The position numbers and the translations under genes were made by a program. Below the pieces are notes generated by a model. That model saw only the letters and a list, made by a program, of their open reading frames with translations. It did not search any database and was not told where the DNA came from. Source: Lacibacter sp. H407 (GTDB lineage Bacteria > Bacteroidota > Bacteroidia > Chitinophagales > Chitinophagaceae). Taken from it: a stretch of DNA of 64,000 nt. How positions within the stretch are numbered: the stretch's first letter is position 1; each line of letters begins with the position of its first letter. Of this stretch, positions 440 through 9,030 are shown piece after piece. The stretch lies in the NCBI RefSeq assembly GCF_037892605.1, contig NZ_JBBKTU010000001.1, positions 1,488,001 through 1,552,000 of the forward strand, read 5' to 3'.

Positions 440-2227
440 TCAGATAAATGTATAATTATATCCTTCCAGTTGCGATAATAATGTTGACGGAGCATCGGTT
501 GCTGTTGCACGGCCTTCAATTTTTGGCGCTACCATTGGATGTGCAGCCAGATATTCACGCATAATGCCGTGTAATGTATGGCCGGGTTTGCGGGGGTTCT
601 TTACTTTTTCCAGACGGCATAAGGTGTCATCAGGATCACCATCACGTTCGCAGGCGAGCATGGTATATTGTTTCTTTTTATCAAGAGGTTTGCCATTGAT
701 GGTTATCCGGTTTACACGTTTTCCCAAATCATTATTCATGGTGAAGTTCATCTCCATTCCTTTGAAACGAACCACCCAGCCTCCAAAACGTTTGGCGGGA
801 TCTTTAGCAAACACATTGTGCAACTCCTGTTCCATCCAATCATGTAACTGTGCGCCGCTTACTTCACCCATCTTTACATCGCTTTCAACCGGGAGCATGC
901 TCCATAAAAAATCATTGGTGATCTCTGCATATCCTTTTTTTGCATCGGCAACTAATGGGGGACAAAAACGAAAACCATTACTCACCACCACATCAACGTT
1001 TGCATCTTTAAATTTCCACATCAATGCATCGGTGATCAGGTTGTCCATTGGGTTTTCAATAACATAATAGCGTACCAATGTTGTTTTGGTTTTGCCAATT
1101 ACTTTATTGAGTTCTTTTTTATGTGGAGCACTTACTTCTTCAACCAGCCTTTCCATTGCGGGATCGGGTTTATATTTTTCAGGATCCACATCGAGCAATT
1201 GGTAGTTCTCATCTTTTATTTGTCCGTTTTCAATAACGATATCAAGCTTGGCAACAAAAGAACCAAAGGCGCCGGGCTCTGTAACCTTTGCATACTTACC
1301 TTGTATGGGCACACGCACACGTTCATGCGTATCGGCACCAAGTATATAGTCAACTCCCTGTAATTCGGGTTGATTGGCAAGATCAACCTGTTGCGCCAAA
1401 CCCATATGTGTTACTAAAAATATCATTGCGCAATTCTCATACTCTTTAAGAATTTTGACATACTTCGCCACATTTATTTCCGGTTTTGTAAACGTGATGC
1501 CTTTACTGTAAGCAGGCGATTGACGTTTAGGTGTAAGCGGATCGTTATAACCAATGAATCCAATTTTAACTCCACCCAACATTTTTGTCCAGTAAGGAGG
1601 AAAAATCAGATCGTTTTTATTTTCATCCGAATTATCATGAAACATGTTGGCACAGATCTTTGCACTATTGTAACCACCAAGATCTTTCAGCATCATATCT
1701 TTTCCATACACTACTTCCCAGTTACCTGGCAGAATAAGATCATACCCAATATTGTTTATCAGTGGTACAATTCCTTTTCCTTCAGTTAATGCAGCTACAC
1801 CACCGCCCTGGAAGCAATCACCACCGTCAATAATAATGGTGTTTGTTGGGTTTTGTGCTTTGAGGGTATGCAGCATTGTTTTCAATACCGCAAACCCGCC
1901 ACGTTTTTTATAAACCGGTTGGTTGTTTTCAAAAAAGAATTCATCGTGTGTGTATAGCTGTGCATGAATATCGGATGTGTGCAAAAGGGTAAATACTTTT
2001 GCTTTACCATCTTTCACCGCTTTATTCCCTAACAATTCATTTGCATGATAATCGTCGCCGCTTACAGCATTTACAATGGATGCGGGTAACACAGCACCTG
2101 CTGCAATAGCAGATGCTGACTTAAAAAAATCTCTTCTTGAGTTTTGCGAGATGGGTGCGATTTGTTGACCATCTGAACAACTGCTGCATGAACAATTGTT
2201 CAGATGGGTAATTTTTGTATCTGGCAT
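440..2227 (-). CDS. SoxB-like thiosulfohydrolase / 5'-nucleotidase family metallophosphoesterase, Tat-exported
   Basis: 595 residues. The Tat motif SRRDFFK lies at residues 30-36. Metallophosphoesterase motifs follow: HTSDIHAQL (83-91), GGDCFQGGG (135-143), GNWEVVYG (168-175) and GADTHERV (near 298), then a C-terminal 5'-nucleotidase domain. The tryptophan in GNWE, where nucleotidases have GNHE, is a SoxB-like trait as I recall that family. SoxB removes sulfate from a thiosulfate-loaded SoxY carrier in the periplasm, but no soxYZ is seen here. The region before the Tat motif has three clustered cysteines (C12, C14, C17). The gene follows the diheme cytochrome gene by 9 bp. A plain nucleotidase is less likely given the neighbours. 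Confidence 0.8.
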   Translation of the reverse strand: MPDTKITHLNNCSCSSCSDGQQIAPISQNSRRDFFKSASAIAAGAVLPASIVNAVSGDDYHANELLGNKAVKDGKAKVFTLLHTSDIHAQLYTHDEFFFENNQPVYKKRGGFAVLKTMLHTLKAQNPTNTIIIDGGDCFQGGGVAALTEGKGIVPLINNIGYDLILPGNWEVVYGKDMMLKDLGGYNSAKICANMFHDNSDENKNDLIFPPYWTKMLGGVKIGFIGYNDPLTPKRQSPAYSKGITFTKPEINVAKYVKILKEYENCAMIFLVTHMGLAQQVDLANQPELQGVDYILGADTHERVRVPIQGKYAKVTEPGAFGSFVAKLDIVIENGQIKDENYQLLDVDPEKYKPDPAMERLVEEVSAPHKKELNKVIGKTKTTLVRYYVIENPMDNLITDALMWKFKDANVDVVVSNGFRFCPPLVADAKKGYAEITNDFLWSMLPVESDVKMGEVSGAQLHDWMEQELHNVFAKDPAKRFGGWVVRFKGMEMNFTMNNDLGKRVNRITINGKPLDKKKQYTMLACERDGDPDDTLCRLEKVKNPRKPGHTLHGIMREYLAAHPMVAPKIEGRATATDAPSTLLSQLEGYNYTFI

Positions 2228-2236
2228 TGCAATCGT

Positions 2237-3244
2237 TTACTTTGATTTTTGAGAAACGGATTTTTTTTGCTGCTCCTTAAAATCCTTGATGGGACCATAA
2301 GGACCATATTTATGTTGCTGTTCAGTAAATGAATCAGCATAGGGACCAAACGGATGGTCGATTGGTTTCTTTGAAATATCGGGCCAATCGCTGCTCAGAT
2401 CTTTTGAAGGACGTGGTTGCGAGTTAACGAATGCTGCCACATCCCATGCTTCTTCGTCGCTCAGTTGCGGGGCATGATAATCGGTTCCCTGTGGCATATT
2501 ATTTTTTACATAACCTGCAAAGCGTGATAAACGGAATAAACCGGCGCCGCTATTGTAACTGTTCTTACCCCATAATGGTGGATATGCATACGCATTACCA
2601 TCTATGTTCATTAATCCTTCACCATTTGCTCCATGGCAGGTTTGGCATTTCTGCACGTACACTGTTTTGCCTTGTTGCGGATCGGCAGCACGGCTCAAAA
2701 AAGGCAGCTCAACAATACCGGAGCCTTTTGGTTTATCGCCTTTCTTCAAATCTTCGCCCAACCATTTGATGTAGGCATAAATGGCCCGCATCTCTTTTGA
2801 ATTTGTATCAAGTGCTGTTCCATTTAAACTCCGTTCCATGCAATCGTTCACCCGTTTGTAAATGGTTTCTATACCACCTGAGCGATCTCTGAATTTTGGA
2901 TAGGTTGTATAAACAGCCCCATAATTATTCCCCCATGGTTTTGTACCTGCATCTAAATGACAGTTCTGACAATTCATGCCATTCGTGATCTGCAGTACCG
3001 ATCCTTTCGGGCCTAGATATTTCGATGTATTAGCGATCAGTTCATGACCATACCAGATGAGTTTTCCATCTTCTCTTGAGTAATAAGGAATCTGGCTAGC
3101 AGGTGGCCCCTTCCAAACAGTTTGCTGAATGGTTGAGTCAACTGCAGTTGATTCCTCTTTGCCTGATTCATTACAGCTAAACTGTGTAGCTGTAATCAGC
3201 AGCAACAGAATAAGAAATACAAGTATGGTTCTCTGTGTATTCAC
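2237..3244 (-). CDS. TsdA-like diheme cytochrome c (putative thiosulfate dehydrogenase)
   Basis: 335 residues with a lipoprotein-type leader (candidate lipid cysteine C24) and two c-type heme sites, CQNCH (92-96) and CQTCH (200-204). The first domain carries HLDAG after the heme site and NDCMERSLNG around C135; TsdA and SoxA enzymes use a cysteine as distal ligand of the first heme. M250 in NNMPQG is a likely second-heme ligand. TsdA joins two thiosulfates to tetrathionate, and related SoxA proteins couple thiosulfate to SoxY. The start codon appears to be GTG: a stop lies four codons upstream and there is no nearby in-frame ATG. Eighteen bp separate it from the upstream YeeE gene. Confidence 0.78.
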   Translation of the reverse strand: MNTQRTILVFLILLLLITATQFSCNESGKEESTAVDSTIQQTVWKGPPASQIPYYSREDGKLIWYGHELIANTSKYLGPKGSVLQITNGMNCQNCHLDAGTKPWGNNYGAVYTTYPKFRDRSGGIETIYKRVNDCMERSLNGTALDTNSKEMRAIYAYIKWLGEDLKKGDKPKGSGIVELPFLSRAADPQQGKTVYVQKCQTCHGANGEGLMNIDGNAYAYPPLWGKNSYNSGAGLFRLSRFAGYVKNNMPQGTDYHAPQLSDEEAWDVAAFVNSQPRPSKDLSSDWPDISKKPIDHPFGPYADSFTEQQHKYGPYGPIKDFKEQQKKSVSQKSK

Positions 3245-3262: not shown

Positions 3263-3814
3263 TTAATGTGGCAGTTGCTCTCTGAATTTCCCATACACCC
3301 ATGTGCCGGCAATTGCACTCAGCAGTGTTACGGCTATAACAGTAGCGCCATTTCCTATCTGCGCAAATAACGGTCCCGGGCATGCGCCGGTAACAGCCCA
3401 ACCTAAACCAAACAGAAGTCCACCATAAATCTGACCCTTATTGAATTTCTTATCAACAAATTCAATTGGTTCACCATAGATAGTTTTGACTTTGAATTTT
3501 TTAATAAGCCAAATACTGATGATACCCACTACTACTGCAGAACCAATGATGCCATACATGTGAAAACTTTGCAGTCGAAACATTTCCTGTATACGGAACC
3601 AGGAAACCACTTCTGCTTTTACGAAGAGGATACCAAACAGTAACCCTACAAATGCATATTTGAAATTATGCCACCATGGATGTTGAAGTTCTGATTCGTT
3701 GAAGCAGGTAGCATCCATCGAACGCATTTCAAAATCTGTATTCTCCGTAAGGAACTCATGGTGTTTTTGTTCCACCACTATTTCTTCTTCAGCTATATTT
3801 TTATGTTGTTCCAT
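3263..3814 (-). CDS. YeeE/YedE-type sulfur transporter half (DUF6691)
   Basis: 183 residues: a charged N-terminal extension of about 48 residues, then four predicted membrane helices. The motif GACPGPLFAQIGNG (from residue 143) contains the cysteine typical of this half of the YeeE/YedE fold. YeeE proteins move thiosulfate or related sulfur species across the inner membrane. It lies 6 bp after the other half-size protein, and the two probably act as a pair, as is usual when YeeE is split. The transported species cannot be read from the sequence. Confidence 0.82.
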   Translation of the reverse strand: MEQHKNIAEEEIVVEQKHHEFLTENTDFEMRSMDATCFNESELQHPWWHNFKYAFVGLLFGILFVKAEVVSWFRIQEMFRLQSFHMYGIIGSAVVVGIISIWLIKKFKVKTIYGEPIEFVDKKFNKGQIYGGLLFGLGWAVTGACPGPLFAQIGNGATVIAVTLLSAIAGTWVYGKFREQLPH

Positions 3815-3820
3815 GAATCG

Positions 3821-4390
3821 TTAGAGTTTAAGAATGAAAGGAAGAAGGAGATTGGCCATGATAAAACCACCCACCATAAAACTGATGGTTGCTACCAATG
3901 AAGGCCATTGCAAAGTAGAAAGACCCATGATTGCATGTCCGCTTGTGCATCCACCGGCATAGCGTGTTCCAAACCCAACGAGGAAACCACCCACCACCAT
4001 CATAATAAAACCACGCAGCGTAAACAGGCTGCTCCAGTTAAACACTTCTGTTGGAACAAGTGAATCGTAATTTGTAATTCCGTACGTGGCCAACTCTGTA
4101 CTCAGCTTTGGATTCACGATCATTGGTTCAGGATTTTGCAGAAAGAGAAACGCAATGAAGCCTCCTAATAAAATACCGCCTACAAAAAATAAGTTCCATA
4201 CTTCTTTTTTCCAATCATAATTGAAGAAAGGAATTTTTGCAGGCAAACATGCTGCGCAGATATGCCGCAGGGAAGAAGAGATACCAAAGGTTTTGTTACC
4301 AATGATGAGTAGCGTGGGTACTGTTAACCCGATCAATGGACCAGCTACATACCAAGGCCACGGTTGTTTAATAAATTCAATCAGGCTCAT
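3821..4390 (-). CDS. YeeE/YedE family sulfur transporter half
   Basis: 189 residues with about five membrane helices. It carries [13 protein letters not shown] (from residue 144), the signature cysteine motif of YeeE/YedE proteins, and a second cysteine pair, CAACLP (45-50). It is the first gene of the operon that continues into the partner YeeE protein, the diheme cytochrome, the SoxB-like hydrolase and the DsrE protein. A CRP-like palindrome and a candidate -7 element lie just upstream. Import of thiosulfate or export of sulfane sulfur are both possible. Confidence 0.85.
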
Positions 4391-4412: not shown

Positions 4413-4457
4413 GCAAGGTAGATATCCACCTGCCGGAATTATGTGATAAATATTACA
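4413..4457 (-). promoter_or_regulatory. Candidate Crp/Fnr-activated promoter of the yeeE-cytochrome-soxB operon
   Basis: The palindrome TGTGATAAATATTACA (4442-4457) matches TGTGA-N6-TCACA with one mismatch. Reading the minus strand, TACCTTGC (4420 down to 4413) is a weak match (6 of 8, counting the two free positions) to the Bacteroidota -7 element TAnnTTTG. The palindrome centre is 29.5 bp from the first base of that element, the same as at the two other sites in this cluster. Binding by the nearby Crp/Fnr protein is inferred. Confidence 0.5.
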
Positions 4458-4505
4458 TTGAGAACAGGTGTTTCTGTAAGGTACAGAAGAATGAAACGGA
4501 TCAGA

Positions 4506-4736
4506 TCAATTGTTGTTCGAAACCTCGCTTGGTTCTTTTGTTTCCTTTTGCTTTGGTTTGAACATACTGTTGCCAATGGCTCCCATCACCCCAAAATAGA
4601 TCATACTTCTTACCGGGCTTGAAGTGATAAGGCAAGTGCCATCACAACCATAGAATTTCCAATAGAAGAAGCCACCTGCAGCACCCAACAGCAATCCCGG
4701 TAAAACCCAGGTTGCTTTTTTAAATAGATTCTTCAT
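4506..4736 (-). CDS. Small two-helix membrane protein with paired cysteines (DUF6132-like)
   Basis: 76 residues with two predicted membrane helices and a loop YGCDGTCLITSSP (C31 and C35) between them, then a polar tail rich in Lys and Glu. The pattern fits DUF6132. It is the last gene of the persulfide dioxygenase/rhodanese operon and overlaps the preceding small membrane gene by 17 bp, which suggests coupled translation. No function is known to me; the cysteine pair at the membrane face and the operon suggest thiol or persulfide chemistry. Confidence 0.7.
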   Translation of the reverse strand: MKNLFKKATWVLPGLLLGAAGGFFYWKFYGCDGTCLITSSPVRSMIYFGVMGAIGNSMFKPKQKETKEPSEVSNNN

Positions 4737-4950
4737 GCTTATTTACTTGCTTGATTTGTTGTTTGTTTTGCGGAACAGCACAGGCACCTCCCATGCATCC
4801 GATATTCATAAAAGCCTGGATCACTAATACTGCACCTATTACCCAAAGAAAAGGAGTAGGCGAATGAAGCCCTTGAATAATTGCTGCTACACCTATGCCA
4901 AGGCGAAGCAGGCGTATACCATTCCATTGTTTCAACCATTGAATGATCAT
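4720..4950 (-). CDS. Small membrane protein with paired cysteines (DUF2892/YgaP-membrane-like)
   Basis: 76 residues with two predicted membrane helices and the motif NIGCMGGACAVP (C52 and C57) after the second helix, then a lysine-rich tail. It resembles the membrane part of YgaP (DUF2892), which in enterobacteria is fused to a rhodanese. Here the rhodanese gene directly upstream overlaps it by 4 bp (ATGA), which fits a split YgaP-like unit. Domain naming is moderate; function is inferred from context. Confidence 0.65.
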   Translation of the reverse strand: MIIQWLKQWNGIRLLRLGIGVAAIIQGLHSPTPFLWVIGAVLVIQAFMNIGCMGGACAVPQNKQQIKQVNKHEESI

Positions 4951-5258
4951 GATGCCATTTTATTTTGTAAGCTCATCCATGATCCGCCGTTATATGCTTC
5001 AACGCCTGCCTGTTTCAAGATAGATGTGGCAGAACCACTACGCATACCACTGGCGCAACAAGTAATAACAGGCTTTCCTTTTTTCTTAATGTCGTTGATC
5101 TTTGAACGGATACTGTCAACCGGAATGTTAATGGCTCCTTTAATATGGCCGCCGCTAAATTCACCGGCAGTACGCACATCAATAATAACAGCACCTTGTT
5201 GTTGTAATGTTTTAAAATCTGTACCCGGGCCAAATAATTTTTTGAAGAAGTTGAACAT
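4947..5258 (-). CDS. Single-domain rhodanese sulfurtransferase
   Basis: 103 residues forming one rhodanese domain with no signal peptide, so cytoplasmic. The active loop reads CCASGMRS, with C68 in the catalytic position and an extra cysteine just before it. IIDVRTAGEFSGGHIKGAINIP is the usual N-terminal rhodanese motif. It overlaps the small membrane gene by 4 bp and lies 1 bp after another rhodanese, so the products may pass sulfane sulfur between them. Confidence 0.88.
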   Translation of the reverse strand: MFNFFKKLFGPGTDFKTLQQQGAVIIDVRTAGEFSGGHIKGAINIPVDSIRSKINDIKKKGKPVITCCASGMRSGSATSILKQAGVEAYNGGSWMSLQNKMAS

Positions 5259-5259
5259 G

Positions 5260-5544
5260 TTAATTTAGATTTTTCAAGGTTAATAAATCGTACAAGCCGC
5301 CAGCATCGTGTACATTCTCAAGTCCCAGTTGTTTTAAAAGAAAGTATGCATTCATACTTCTTGCACCAGAGCGGCAATACAATACCACCGGGCCGTTAAA
5401 TGTTTTTAATTCCTCTACATTGCTTGTTATTTCAGGCAAAGGGATATTTGTTGCACCAGGGAAATGCCCGTCGGCAAATTCTTCTCTTGAACGCACATCA
5501 ACAAACTTTGTCTGTGGGTTCTGAACGATTTCTTTTAGATTCAT
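5260..5544 (-). CDS. Single-domain rhodanese sulfurtransferase
   Basis: 94 residues covering one short rhodanese domain. KFVDVRSREEFADGHFPGATNIP and the active loop CRSGARS (C57) are intact. There is no signal peptide. It sits between two further rhodanese genes in the operon headed by the persulfide dioxygenase. The short length is normal for a GlpE-size protein. Confidence 0.88.
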   Translation of the reverse strand: MNLKEIVQNPQTKFVDVRSREEFADGHFPGATNIPLPEITSNVEELKTFNGPVVLYCRSGARSMNAYFLLKQLGLENVHDAGGLYDLLTLKNLN

Positions 5545-5561
5545 ATCAAATGGTTTTTCGT

Positions 5562-5933
5562 TTATTGTTTAATTGTTCCTTTCCAGGCAGTGATGCCGCC
5601 TTCCATATTCCAGATACGGCGAAAGCCCTGTTGCTCCATGATGGTTGCTGCTTTGGCACTGCGTCGTCCGCTTTTGCAGTAAACCAGGTAGGACTTTCCT
5701 TTTTTCAGCTGATTGATTTGTTGTACAAATGCAACTGAATCCATCACATCTATATGAACTGCGTTGGGCAAATGACCTTCGTTGAATTCCTGTGTGGTGC
5801 GTACATCCAGTACTACCACTTTCTTTTTATTGAATTTCTTTTCAGCAAATGCAGGCGCTACATTTTTTGTTTGCGCCATTGCTGAGAGAACAGCAAAGAA
5901 TCCAACTGCCAGGAAAAAATATCGGTTTTTCAT
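5562..5933 (-). CDS. Exported single-domain rhodanese
   Basis: 123 residues with a signal peptide of about 20 residues ending AMAQ, so the rhodanese domain is probably periplasmic. The active loop CKSGRRS (C86) and VVVLDVRTTQEFNEGHLPNAVHID are intact. It is the second gene of the operon, 59 bp after the dioxygenase gene. The periplasmic location sets it apart from the two cytoplasmic rhodaneses downstream and would let the operon handle sulfane sulfur on both sides of the membrane. Confidence 0.87.
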   Translation of the reverse strand: MKNRYFFLAVGFFAVLSAMAQTKNVAPAFAEKKFNKKKVVVLDVRTTQEFNEGHLPNAVHIDVMDSVAFVQQINQLKKGKSYLVYCKSGRRSAKAATIMEQQGFRRIWNMEGGITAWKGTIKQ

Positions 5934-5992
5934 AGTATGATTTGAAATGAAGGAGGTTGTAATACACCTTCATGTATTGTTAAAATTGCTTG

Positions 5993-7414
5993 TTACAACA
6001 GCGTGGTTGGACACACGTAATCGGTTAAATTAAACTTACCGCTTTCTTTCATTGCTTTAAAACCACCACGCACATCAATTAAATTATCATAACCACGTGC
6101 ACGAAGAATAGATACAAAGATCATTGAGCGATAGCCACCTGCACAATGCACATAGTAGGTTTTATTTTTATCAACCTTTAACATGCTGTCGTTAATAAAA
6201 TCTAATGGCGTGTTCTCTACATTAAACAAATGTTCACTCTGGTACTCACTTTCTTTACGTACATCGAGAATGTTTGCATCATTATCTTTTGTTACGATCT
6301 CGGCTAACTCTTCTGCAGATACACGTTTGATCTGGTCAATTTCTTTTCCAGCTTCTTTCCATGCATTGAATCCGCCTTTCAGATAACCCAGTGAATAATC
6401 GTAACCAACACGGGCCAAACGGGTAACCACTTCTTCTTCACGACCTTCATCTGTTACCAATAAGATTTCCTGTTTTACATCGGGGATCATACTGCCAACC
6501 CATGGAGCAAAGCTTCCATCGATACCAATGTTGATGGAGTTTGGTACAAATCCTTTTGCAAAAACTTCTCCATCCCTTGTATCGAGGATCAAAGCACCGG
6601 TTTCGTTTGCTGCTGTTTCAAATGCTTCAGGGCTGAGTGCTTGTGTGCCACGCTTCAACACTTCTTCAATGCTGTCGTAACCATGAATATTCATCATTAC
6701 ATTCAAAGGAAAATATTGTGGAGGTGCCACCAAGCCTGTTGTTACTTCTTTAATGAATTCTTCTTTGGTCATGTTTGCACGCAATGCATAGTTGGTTGCT
6801 TTTTGATGACCCAATGTATCAGAAGTTTCTTTACTCATGTTCTTGCCGCATGCACTTCCTGCACCATGCGCGGGATATACGATGAGCTCATCTGCCAACG
6901 GCATGATCTTATTACGAAGAGAATCATACAAATAGCCTGCAAGCATATCCTGTGTAAGATCCACTACAATTTTTTGTGCAAGATCAGGGCGACCAACATC
7001 ACCAATGAATAATGTATCACCGGTGAAGATGGCAATATCTTTTCCATGTTCATCTTTCAACAGGTAACAGGTACTTTCCATTGTATGTCCCGGTGTATGC
7101 AATACTTTGAATGTAAGTTTGCCAACTTTCAGCTCTTCACCATCTTTCGCAGAATGAAATTCAAAATCGGGTTGTGCATTTGGACCGTACACGATCTTTG
7201 CACCAGCTTCTTTTGCAAGATCAATATGTCCACTCACAAAATCTGCATGGAAATGTGTTTCAAATACATACTTGATCTTGGCATTATTGCGCTTTGCTTT
7301 TTCCAGGTAAGGTTTTACTTCACGCAACGGATCGATCACTACGGCCTCGCCTTCACTTTCAATGTAATATGCACCTTGTGCTAAGCAACCGGTATAGATC
7401 TGTTCAATTTTCAT
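5993..7414 (-). CDS. Persulfide dioxygenase-like metallo-beta-lactamase protein with two rhodanese domains
   Basis: 473 residues. The first part, to about residue 240, is a metallo-beta-lactamase fold with the iron-binding motif HFHADFVSGH (54-63), then HTPGHT and FTGDTLFIGDVGRPDL, as in ETHE1-type persulfide dioxygenases. Two rhodanese domains follow. The first (about 262-350) has no cysteine in its active loop (VTDEGREEE), so it should be inactive. The second (about 370-465) has HCAGGYRS. Such enzymes oxidise a low-molecular-weight thiol persulfide to sulfite, which fits the sulfite exporter gene next upstream. The thiol carrier is unknown here. It heads its operon behind a CRP-like site. 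Confidence 0.88.
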   Translation of the reverse strand: MKIEQIYTGCLAQGAYYIESEGEAVVIDPLREVKPYLEKAKRNNAKIKYVFETHFHADFVSGHIDLAKEAGAKIVYGPNAQPDFEFHSAKDGEELKVGKLTFKVLHTPGHTMESTCYLLKDEHGKDIAIFTGDTLFIGDVGRPDLAQKIVVDLTQDMLAGYLYDSLRNKIMPLADELIVYPAHGAGSACGKNMSKETSDTLGHQKATNYALRANMTKEEFIKEVTTGLVAPPQYFPLNVMMNIHGYDSIEEVLKRGTQALSPEAFETAANETGALILDTRDGEVFAKGFVPNSINIGIDGSFAPWVGSMIPDVKQEILLVTDEGREEEVVTRLARVGYDYSLGYLKGGFNAWKEAGKEIDQIKRVSAEELAEIVTKDNDANILDVRKESEYQSEHLFNVENTPLDFINDSMLKVDKNKTYYVHCAGGYRSMIFVSILRARGYDNLIDVRGGFKAMKESGKFNLTDYVCPTTLL

Positions 7415-7455
7415 GTTTATATTTTTTTGTTTTTTTATTGTTGATTCGAATGATA

Positions 7456-7500
7456 CAAAGTTGTGTTTTCAGGAGACAGTGAACTATGACTTTTGTCACA
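7456..7500 (-). promoter_or_regulatory. Candidate Crp/Fnr-activated promoter of the persulfide dioxygenase operon
   Basis: TATGACTTTTGTCACA (7485-7500) fits TGTGA-N6-TCACA with one mismatch. On the minus strand CAACTTTG (7463 down to 7456) matches TAnnTTTG except at its first base. The palindrome centre is 29.5 bp from that first base, placing it near -41.5 from the expected start. The implied leader before the ATG at 7414 is about 37 nt. Confidence 0.6.
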
Positions 7501-7524
7501 TAGAAGCGCCGGAGGAAAAGAAGT

Positions 7525-8322
7525 TTAGCGAATAAACAATTCTTTCACAATAATGTAAATGCCCATCACCAATACAAACCAGCCAAACCCTCTTTTCAAT
7601 TTATCACCGGAGATTTTTTTACTGAGTGCATTGCCAACAAAAATGCCGGCAATGGCCAATGCTGTTACAATGATGAGTAGTTTCCAATCGATGACTTGAT
7701 GCCCAACATCACCAAGGAAGCCGATCAGTGATTTAGCTGCTATAATTAATAGAGAAGTTCCAACGGCTTGTTTCATTGGAAGTTTGCTGAGTAATACCAA
7801 TGCAGGAATAATTAAGAACCCCCCACCGGCACCAACCAATCCGGTTAAGATACCTACGACAGTTCCTTCGACGAGTATCAATGGGTAATTGAATTTCTGT
7901 TCGCCACCGTTACCATTTTCATCTTCGTTCTTTCCCTTGATCATGGAGTACGATGCAAACACCATCAGTACTGCAAACAGCAGCATCATTAAAATGGGTT
8001 TGGTTACGGTGAAACCAGCAAGGGTAAACACTTCATCGGGAATAGCCGGTACTATAAATTTCCGTGTGGCATAAACGGCTGCAATGGCTGGTGCGCCAAA
8101 GATCAAGGCTGTTTTAATATTTACCAGTCCATGCTTGTATTTCGGGAAAACGCCTACCAGCGAAGTGGCCCCAACAATAAATAAGGAATAAGCAGTTGCC
8201 AATACCGGGTTCACACCAAACAGATAGACCAATACCGGTACTGTCAGAATAGAACCACCTCCGCCGATGAGTCCTAACGAAATGCCAATAACAATAGAAG
8301 CGATGTAGCCGATTATTTCCAT
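7525..8322 (-). CDS. TauE/SafE family sulfite/sulfur-compound exporter
   Basis: 265 residues with about eight predicted membrane helices in two repeats. The glycine-rich motif GLIGGGGSILTVPVLVYL opens the first repeat and LVGAGGGFLIIPALVLL the second, as in the TauE/SafE family. It probably exports sulfite made by the persulfide dioxygenase encoded next to it, or another small sulfonate. It has its own CRP-like site and a candidate -7 element that ends only 4 nt before its ATG, so its mRNA may be leaderless. Confidence 0.88.
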   Translation of the reverse strand: MEIIGYIASIVIGISLGLIGGGGSILTVPVLVYLFGVNPVLATAYSLFIVGATSLVGVFPKYKHGLVNIKTALIFGAPAIAAVYATRKFIVPAIPDEVFTLAGFTVTKPILMMLLFAVLMVFASYSMIKGKNEDENGNGGEQKFNYPLILVEGTVVGILTGLVGAGGGFLIIPALVLLSKLPMKQAVGTSLLIIAAKSLIGFLGDVGHQVIDWKLLIIVTALAIAGIFVGNALSKKISGDKLKRGFGWFVLVMGIYIIVKELFIR

Positions 8323-8326
8323 GCTG

Positions 8327-8371
8327 CAAATGTGGATGCAATTTCAGCATCGGAAGGTGATACAAATCACA
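8327..8371 (-). promoter_or_regulatory. Candidate Crp/Fnr-activated promoter of the TauE/SafE gene
   Basis: GGTGATACAAATCACA (8356-8371) holds a perfect GTGAT-N4-ATCAC palindrome. On the minus strand CACATTTG (8334 down to 8327) matches TAnnTTTG except at its first base. The palindrome centre lies 29.5 bp from that base. The site falls between the regulator gene and the exporter gene. Confidence 0.6.
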
Positions 8372-8382
8372 CAGGCAAACAA

Positions 8383-9030
8383 TTATAAATTTTTCAACTC
8401 AATGGCATTGCGGTGCAGACCCACCAAACCTTTTTGCTCCATTTTTTTGAGTAGTCTTGATATTACCTCTCTAGATGTATTTAACTCCTGTGCAATTTCC
8501 TGGTGGCTGATATTGAGTAGGGTTGTTTGCTGCGCATCCTTTGCCCGCTTCAGGTAAAATTCCAAACGCTCATCCATACTGCGGAAGGCAACATTATCTA
8601 ATGTAACAAGTAATTCATCAAAACGGTTACGGTAGGTTTCAATCACAAACTGGTACCAGCTTTTGAATTTACTCATCCATTCGCTCATTGTATCAACAGG
8701 CACCATCATCACTTCTGTTTCAACAACTGTTTTTGCCATAATAGGACTTGCTTCATGCTTGGCTGCACAAACGAGTGATAAAGCACAGGCTTCACCCGGT
8801 TTTAAATAATACATGAGAAATTCATTGCCATCATCATCTTCCCGATAGATCTTGATGAGACCATTTAAAACCAGCATGGTACTGCGGATGTACTGCCCTT
8901 TTCGCATGAGGATCTCATTGGCAGGAAAAGTTTTGAACTCACCTTGTTCTTCAATTTCATCTACTAGCTGATCTTCAAATAAGGGATAACTCTTGCGGAG
9001 AAGATCGTCGTGTACCTGTTGCGTAGCCAT
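8383..9030 (-). CDS. Crp/Fnr family transcriptional regulator
   Basis: About 215 residues from the ATG at 9030 (the frame extends two codons further to a TTG). An N-terminal cyclic-nucleotide-binding-like barrel is followed by a winged helix-turn-helix with ISHQEIAQELNTSREVISRLLKKMEQKG. The barrel has two cysteines in GEACALSLVC where classical CRP has its ligand-binding segment, so redox or persulfide sensing is possible. There is no N-terminal Fe-S cysteine cluster as in FNR. It lies upstream of the exporter gene in the same direction and is the obvious candidate to bind the three CRP-like sites in this cluster. Confidence 0.88.
   Translation of the reverse strand: MATQQVHDDLLRKSYPLFEDQLVDEIEEQGEFKTFPANEILMRKGQYIRSTMLVLNGLIKIYREDDDGNEFLMYYLKPGEACALSLVCAAKHEASPIMAKTVVETEVMMVPVDTMSEWMSKFKSWYQFVIETYRNRFDELLVTLDNVAFRSMDERLEFYLKRAKDAQQTTLLNISHQEIAQELNTSREVISRLLKKMEQKGLVGLHRNAIELKNL

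Follow-up and report, generated by a model that had tools for sequence, protein, structure and literature searches.

Do the three CRP-like palindromes found upstream of the sulfur genes of a Lacibacter cluster act as operators of the Crp/Fnr-family protein that is encoded beside them? The question arises from a stretch of 64,000 nucleotides of the genome of the soil and water bacterium Lacibacter sp. H407 (NCBI RefSeq assembly GCF_037892605.1, contig NZ_JBBKTU010000001.1, positions 1,488,001 to 1,552,000), referred to here as the window, in which the regulator gene (crp) is accompanied by genes for a TauE/SafE-family transporter (tauE), an MBL-fold protein with rhodanese stretches (mbl) and a pair of YeeE/YedE-type proteins (yeeA, yeeB). 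An earlier reading made from the letters of this DNA (the sequence-only reading) had placed one palindrome before each of three sulfur transcription units and had proposed that the Crp/Fnr protein activates the whole cluster. From the analysis presented here it appears very probable that the neighbouring Crp/Fnr protein is a class II activator of these sulfur genes, which serve the handling of sulfide and thiosulfate, a statement which concerns activation and excludes the sensing step. The three palindromes would then be the operators of the protein encoded at 8383-9030; a dimer of this regulator, bound at -41.5 where it adjoins both the -7 box and the sigma factor, would activate tauE, the operon of MBL-rhodanese and rhodanese genes, and yeeAB, and outside the window it would also act before cdr, a gene divergent from sqr-tusE-dsrE2. 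The earlier proposal draws support from the recognition helix of the protein, from its co-occurrence with the sites and from the site geometry.

Palindromes and promoter geometry

All three palindromes were present in the sequence, with the coordinates, the letters and the identical spacing that had been claimed for them (Table 1): 21 bases separate each from its -7 box, and the distance from the centre of the palindrome to the box is 29.5 bp in 3/3 cases. The class II position of CRP in Escherichia coli is a centre at -41.5. In the flavobacterial start-site map, as given in the accessible part of PMC9723704, the sigma-A -7 box (TAnnTTTG) lies at -12 to -5; with the centre 29.5 bp ahead of the first base of such a box, the predicted centre falls at -41.5. 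The class II spacing that the sequence-only reading had supposed is thus borne out by the measured offset taken together with that box position, and the promoters have, at their predicted starts, the geometry of a class II activator.

A second box, SM5 (TAnnTTGY), which shares the position of TAnnTTTG, appears in the same part of that paper, where SM4-6 are regarded as being, most probably, under the control of alternative sigma factors. The yeeA box, TACCTTGC, fits this second type, and TAnnTTGC stands at the exact offset in 5/5 of the Lacibacter-group yeeA promoters which keep the palindrome (the window, L032, L033, L034 and L039); nine Niastella/Longitalea yeeA promoters have CAnnTTTA at that offset. 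The first -7 element had been called weak by the sequence-only reading, and this view is given up here in favour of a conserved box of the TAnnTTGY type.

By itself the motif does not stand out in the window, where K-GTGA-N6-TCAC-M, at no more than two mismatches, occurs 98 times against 89.8 expected. This lack of enrichment would favour the explanation that chance palindromes had been picked by eye; the case for significance therefore rests on the spacing and on the conservation in relatives. One exact offset is conserved in distant genera, and chance is accordingly an extremely improbable explanation.

Conservation of site and spacing in relatives

The upstream regions of tauE, mbl, yeeA, crp and the cytochrome c gene of the cluster (cytc) were collected from the window and from 80 GTDB loci which contain the regulator (L032-L111), loci L002-L031, with their short flanks, being left out; gene matches were kept if they started no more than 25 residues from the start of the query and had 150 bases upstream, giving 64 regions for tauE and 73 for mbl. 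A site was defined as a palindrome that matches the consensus in 8 or more of its 10 letters, with TTTG starting 25 nucleotides after the 16-mer.

In the tauE and mbl regions taken together (n=137), TTTG followed such a palindrome at offset 25 in 107 and at offset 20 in one; no region had it at any of the remaining offsets between 15 and 35. The site with TTTG at exactly offset 25 was present in 53/64 tauE regions and 54/73 mbl regions, and after the removal of similar regions in 44/55 and 34/52, respectively, where dinucleotide shuffling gave means of 0.04 and 0.03. As negative controls, the regions upstream of crp (0/66) and cytc (0/15) contained no site with TTTG at offset 25. At positions which had played no part in the selection, the 80 distinct sites agreed completely, with A at position 2 of the -7 box in 80/80 and a pyrimidine after TTTG in 80/80. 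Comparison shows that the sites are present, are conserved with a rigid spacing and occur together with the regulator; the promoters of relatives, whose alignment had been proposed as a check, keep GTGA-N6-TCAC sites at a fixed offset before tauE and mbl.

The yeeA site is less widespread than those of tauE and mbl. It was found in 14/53 regions when TTTG, TTGC, TTTA or TTTC was allowed (plain letter-shuffle mean 0.05), and 0/49 yeeA regions had strict TTTG at the offset; a palindrome of 8 or 9 letters was also seen in L032, L033, L034, L039 and nine Niastella/Longitalea loci. In two other loci, L095 and L102, a site stands before mbl but none before tauE. Direct autoregulation of crp through a site of this kind was considered separately and is rejected, with a site in 0/66 upstream regions (1/66 at a looser criterion of 7/10 letters).

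The identity of the binding protein, its position at -41.5 and its action as an activator rather than a repressor are points which we infer from the motif and the literature. The regulator could instead bind these sites as a repressor which an inducer releases, an arrangement we regard as quite improbable. A repressor would need no exact offset, whereas a centre fixed rigidly at -41.5 is what class II activators show, and the -7 boxes mostly start with C and not T (52 C, 25 T and 3 G among the 80 distinct sites), which would fit activator-dependent promoters; repression has in its favour that known persulfide regulators, namely CstR, SqrR and BigR, act as repressors, according to the accessible parts of PMC9774590 and PMC5823870.

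With activation from -41.5 as the preferred reading, a start 41.5 bp from the palindrome centre would place the first base of the tauE transcript on the A of its ATG, so that the messenger RNA (mRNA) would be leaderless. The distance from centre to ATG is 41.5 in nine and 42.5 in two of 11 Lacibacter-group loci (window included), and 51.5-57.5 in 42 other loci with the site. No in-frame ATG, GTG or TTG occurs upstream of the tauE ATG. Leaderless mRNAs make up 5.5% in Flavobacterium psychrophilum in the accessible part of PMC9723704, and a leaderless tauE mRNA is predicted for the Lacibacter group.

The protein predicted to bind

The regulator is a member of the Crp/Fnr superfamily, with PF00027 (41.7 bits) and PF13545 (44.4 bits) both above their cut-offs and a fold which matches the structures of CRP, HcpR and FNR. 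It does not belong to CRP itself, as the NCBIfam CRP model scores 53.9 bits against a cut-off of 266. In CRP, E72 and R82 are contacts to cAMP, and the aligned residues in the regulator are A and E. It is not an FNR either. FNR is recognised by an N-terminal cysteine cluster for Fe-S and a V-E-x2-S-R helix; the regulator has only two cysteines (C79 and C85), and the NCBIfam FNR model gives 23.8 bits against 228. Its recognition helix reads [TS]-S-R-E-V-[IV]-S-R, in which S, R, E, V, S and R are invariant in 81/81 sequences. CRP reads GTGA through R-E-x3-R, and both this helix and the GTGA-type half-sites argue for a DNA specificity of the CRP type in the regulator.

The other candidate binders are the remaining Crp/Fnr proteins of the genome. 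The genome has 19 matches to the cNMP domain, that is the regulator and 18 other places, and among the 17 of these which were inspected (two overlapping loci gave the same open reading frame, leaving one place unseen) none had the R-E-x3-R helix or both cysteines. Across the genus, the regulator, mbl and the tauE site occur together in 13/14 genomes, and an mbl site with at most one mismatch was found in nine of the 13 that bear the regulator; in the remaining genome (G321) neither the regulator (at 1e-30) nor mbl (at 1e-120) nor a site with at most one mismatch was found. This set should be considered with caution, as the 14 genomes are largely of the same species as the closest GTDB loci and do not form a second independent set.

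A family-wide count was made with a looser criterion for mbl (at least 7/10 letters and TTT at offset 25), for which the best copy per genome was kept from 76 listed mbl places (66 genomes). Among the matches listed, the best mbl copy had a site in 40/47 genomes with a strong regulator hit (E <1e-56), 4/5 with a middle hit and 0/4 with no hit at 1e-40; strong against no hit gives a Fisher p of 0.0013, a value which ignores kinship. The second MBL copy of the Lacibacter sp. H407 genome had no upstream site, the best match being 6/10 letters.

Sister regulators offer a comparison in which the helix itself differs. In 13 of the 19 loci L261-L279 the E of the helix is replaced by V, and the sites of these V-type sisters are mostly TGTAAC-N4-GTTACA at the same offset; most of the 19 regulators have C-x5-C-C and mostly they stand beside rhodanese genes, the site often overlapping the end of the regulator gene. 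In E. coli CRP, changes of E181 alter the corresponding base. After the removal of 12 rows with an identical regulator end, at least one GTGA-type half was present in 81/84 downstream sites of E-type regulators and in 1/7 of those of V-type regulators. A search for V-type regulators in 394 genomes, made with an over-strict threshold, returned only two genomes, both already known.

Sites beyond the window

A search of the own genome for the palindrome with TTTG, allowing at most one of 14 letters to be wrong, gave 10 places. Two of these are mbl and tauE. Another two are situated some 3.5 kb to the left of the window, ahead of cdr (L142:2648-4342), which encodes a coenzyme A-disulfide reductase-rhodanese and is divergent from sqr, tusE/dsrC and dsrE2; in the distal one the wrong letter falls within TTTG. 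The promoter region shared by cdr and sqr (L142:4340-4644, about 1484340-1484644 of genome contig C1) contains three palindromes that match in 9 or 10 letters, among them a perfect one (TGTGATTTTTGTCACA). The proximal cdr palindrome is followed at the class II offset by TACTTTTG in the own genome, L037 and L038, and by TATTTTTG in L036. The claim of sites before all three sulfur units therefore stands for all three, while the count itself was too low, with further sites before cdr outside the window. In the 14 genus genomes the palindrome with TTTG, again with at most one wrong letter, occurs at 79 places, compared with 15 for a reversed control pattern.

Three other observations were made in these searches. 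One perfect palindrome, again with TTTG at offset 25 (L143:1509-1553, plus strand), directly precedes a DUF2490 gene; G292 has a near-identical place with 0 mismatches, and no sulfur link was seen. The perfect palindrome TGTGACTTATGTCACA (L145:1913-1928), some 200 bp ahead of the gene for a PSCyt1-type cytochrome, lacks TTTG at offset 25. The SQR protein (L142:4642-5877, plus strand) matches the NCBIfam model of the type III SQR selenoprotein subtype with 644.7 against a cut-off of 525.

Points against activation by the neighbouring regulator

Several results weigh against the reading of the neighbouring protein as activator of these genes. Loss of palindromes despite a kept regulator, which had been named beforehand as what would count against it, was found in part, namely for yeeA: four close relatives (L035, L036, L040 and L041) keep the regulator and are without the palindrome and -7 box. 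Nine Niastella/Longitalea tauE regions keep a 9/10 palindrome without TTTG at offset 25, L041 is without the proximal cdr site, and sqr has no site or -7 box at the class II offset in the promoter region it shares with cdr. The counts in relatives are moreover not independent events, owing to shared ancestry. Among the mbl matches listed, 7/47 genomes with a strong regulator hit have no site before the best copy, 5/10 with a weak hit do have one, and second mbl copies with a site number 5/10. The match of helix and site has its own exceptions: the E-type regulators of L267, L268 and L269 accompany TGTAAC..GTTACA sites, and the V-type regulators of G136 and G050 occur with one GTGA half before mbl.

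Other results of this kind bear directly on an alternative, in which a different Crp/Fnr protein encoded in the genome uses the palindromes as its operators, and the neighbouring regulator is only a passenger of the cluster. Strong sites, including perfect palindromes, also precede non-sulfur genes, and G076, G096 and G003 have GTGA-type mbl sites, the weak-hit regulators found there not being E-type; the 19 cNMP-domain matches add to the possible candidates. This alternative nevertheless seems unlikely, as R-E-x3-R was found in 0/17 of the other reading frames inspected, the letters of the site tend to change with the helix of the regulator, and the genus site is present in 13/13 regulator-bearing genomes and not in the genome without the regulator.

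A possible sulfur sensor

With the neighbouring regulator preferred as the activator, its two cysteines suggest what it might sense. C79 and C85 are invariant in 81/81 sequences (29/29 in alignment A1), and in the alignment they fall where CRP has its phosphate-binding (cAMP) cassette. In the AlphaFold model of the regulator the overall predicted local distance difference test (pLDDT) score is 86 and segment 83-86, which contains C85, scores below 50, and thus the thiol-thiol distance cannot be read from the model. The C-x5-C pair may tentatively be seen as a thiol switch which responds to sulfane sulfur, or to some similar product formed when sulfide is oxidised, and turns the regulon on, an assignment which we would put at somewhat short of an even chance. 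The likeliest sensing mechanism, by analogy and with the same reserve, would be a persulfide or polysulfide bridge like those described for CstR and FisR in the accessible part of PMC9774590; alternatively the pair may serve heme, a ligand of another kind, or Fe-S together with a partner.

The most far-reaching picture would be of a Bacteroidota branch of Crp/Fnr proteins in which a C-x5-C dithiol has taken the place of the cAMP cassette, and which is both a direct sensor of sulfane sulfur and the class II activator of a whole regulon for sulfide/thiosulfate oxidation. In the Lacibacter group it would drive a tauE mRNA without a leader and act at -7 boxes of two types, perhaps with two sigma factors. 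As a whole this is conceivable and rather doubtful.

Relation to known systems

Class II promoters of E. coli CRP are alike in the TGTGA-N6-TCACA half-sites, the R-E-x3-R helix and the centre at -41.5. They are unlike the present system in that the regulator has A and E at the E72/R82 positions, the targets are sulfur genes, and the Bacteroidota -7 box replaces -10/-35.

BigR/SqrR, CstR and FisR resemble the regulator in controlling sulfide-oxidation genes and in using two or three cysteines (PMC9774590 and PMC5823870, in their accessible parts); however, they are ArsR, CsoR and Fis-type proteins, and BigR, SqrR and CstR are repressors. The Crp-family protein A1S_1182 of Acinetobacter baumannii is reported to be persulfidated after sulfide treatment, but it is 50% identical to E. 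coli Crp and its conserved cysteine lies opposite the ligand pocket; the impact of this persulfidation is stated as not known in the accessible part of PMC7315123. Among solved structures the best sequence match (E 1.5e-16) is a Crp/Fnr protein of Eubacterium rectale (PDB 3dv8), which has cysteine at both aligned positions, although identity in the fold alignment is 22%.

The sulfide-oxidation regulators CstR, SqrR, BigR and FisR named in the accessible parts of PMC7315123 and PMC9774590 are not Crp/Fnr proteins, and none of the titles listed in searches of open-licence PMC papers concerned a Crp/Fnr regulator of such a cluster. If the proposal is true, the Bacteroidota would have a sulfide switch of their own, with a site and spacing precise enough for regulons to be read from sequence. 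The difference of E and V in the helix, with the matching trend in the letters of the site, would constitute a natural specificity series, and the conserved cysteine pair offers a direct mutational test of the possible sulfur sensor.

Gene content of the cluster

The genes of the cluster, all on the minus strand, are in order the Crp/Fnr regulator, the TauE/SafE transporter, MBL-rhodanese, three rhodaneses and two short open reading frames, after which come two YeeE/YedE-type proteins, a cytochrome c that bears a SoxA/TsdA-type domain and, at the end, a SoxB-like protein (Table 1). The last is only SoxB-like, as the SoxB model scores 261.7 bits against a cut-off of 550, and beside it and the SoxA/TsdA-type cytochrome c the rest of the Sox system was not in view. 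The regulator analyses used a query of 212 aa beginning at 9021, compared with 215 aa from the ATG at 9030.

Table 1. Sites, predicted promoter elements and genes of the sulfur cluster, in coordinates of the window (aa, amino acids)
Feature	Coordinates	Strand	Remarks
Palindrome TGTGATTTGTATCACC before tauE	8356..8371 (5'->3' 8371-8356)	-	Predicted centre -41.5
Palindrome TGTGACAAAAGTCATA before mbl	7485..7500 (5'->3' 7500-7485)	-	Read from sequence
Palindrome TGTAATATTTATCACA before yeeA	4442..4457 (5'->3' 4457-4442)	-	Read from sequence
-7 box CACATTTG of tauE	8327..8334	-	Predicted transcript start 8322
-7 box CAACTTTG of mbl	7456..7463	-	Predicted transcript start 7451
-7 box TACCTTGC of yeeA, TAnnTTGY type	4413..4420	-	Predicted transcript start 4408
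Predicted tauE transcript start, A of ATG	8322	-	Box at -12 to -5 (PMC9723704, accessible part)
crp, Crp/Fnr-family regulator	8383..9030	-	215 aa from ATG 9030; PF13545, PF00027, PF00325 above cut-off
Invariant C-x5-C codons of crp	8767..8787	-	C79, C85 of the 212-aa query = C82, C88 from ATG 9030
tauE, TauE/SafE-family transporter	7525..8322	-	PF01925
mbl, MBL-fold protein with two rhodanese stretches, persulfide-dioxygenase-like	5993..7414	-	PF00753, PF00581
Three single-domain rhodaneses (5562-5933, 5260-5544, 4947-5258)	4947..5933	-	PF00581
Two short open reading frames	4510-4950	-	Read by eye
yeeA and yeeB, paired YeeE/YedE-type sulfur-transport proteins	3263..4390	-	PF04143
SoxB-like protein and SoxA/TsdA-type cytochrome c (cytc)	440-3244	-	End of cluster

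Among named relatives, the closest regulators are those of Lacibacter cauensis (L035, 91% identity) and Lacibacter luteus (L036, 90%), and regulators from metagenome-assembled genomes are 91-94% identical to that of the window, which points to a Lacibacter-type member of the Chitinophagaceae. The arrangement of the genes varies among relatives. L040 has a tandem pair of MBL-rhodanese genes (L040:10860-13857) with the palindrome only before the better-matching copy, whilst in most of the loci L063-L110 (mostly Flavobacterium) a rhodanese gene lies on the opposite strand some 0.3-0.8 kb ahead of the regulator, and tauE and mbl are separated by about 4-8 kb.

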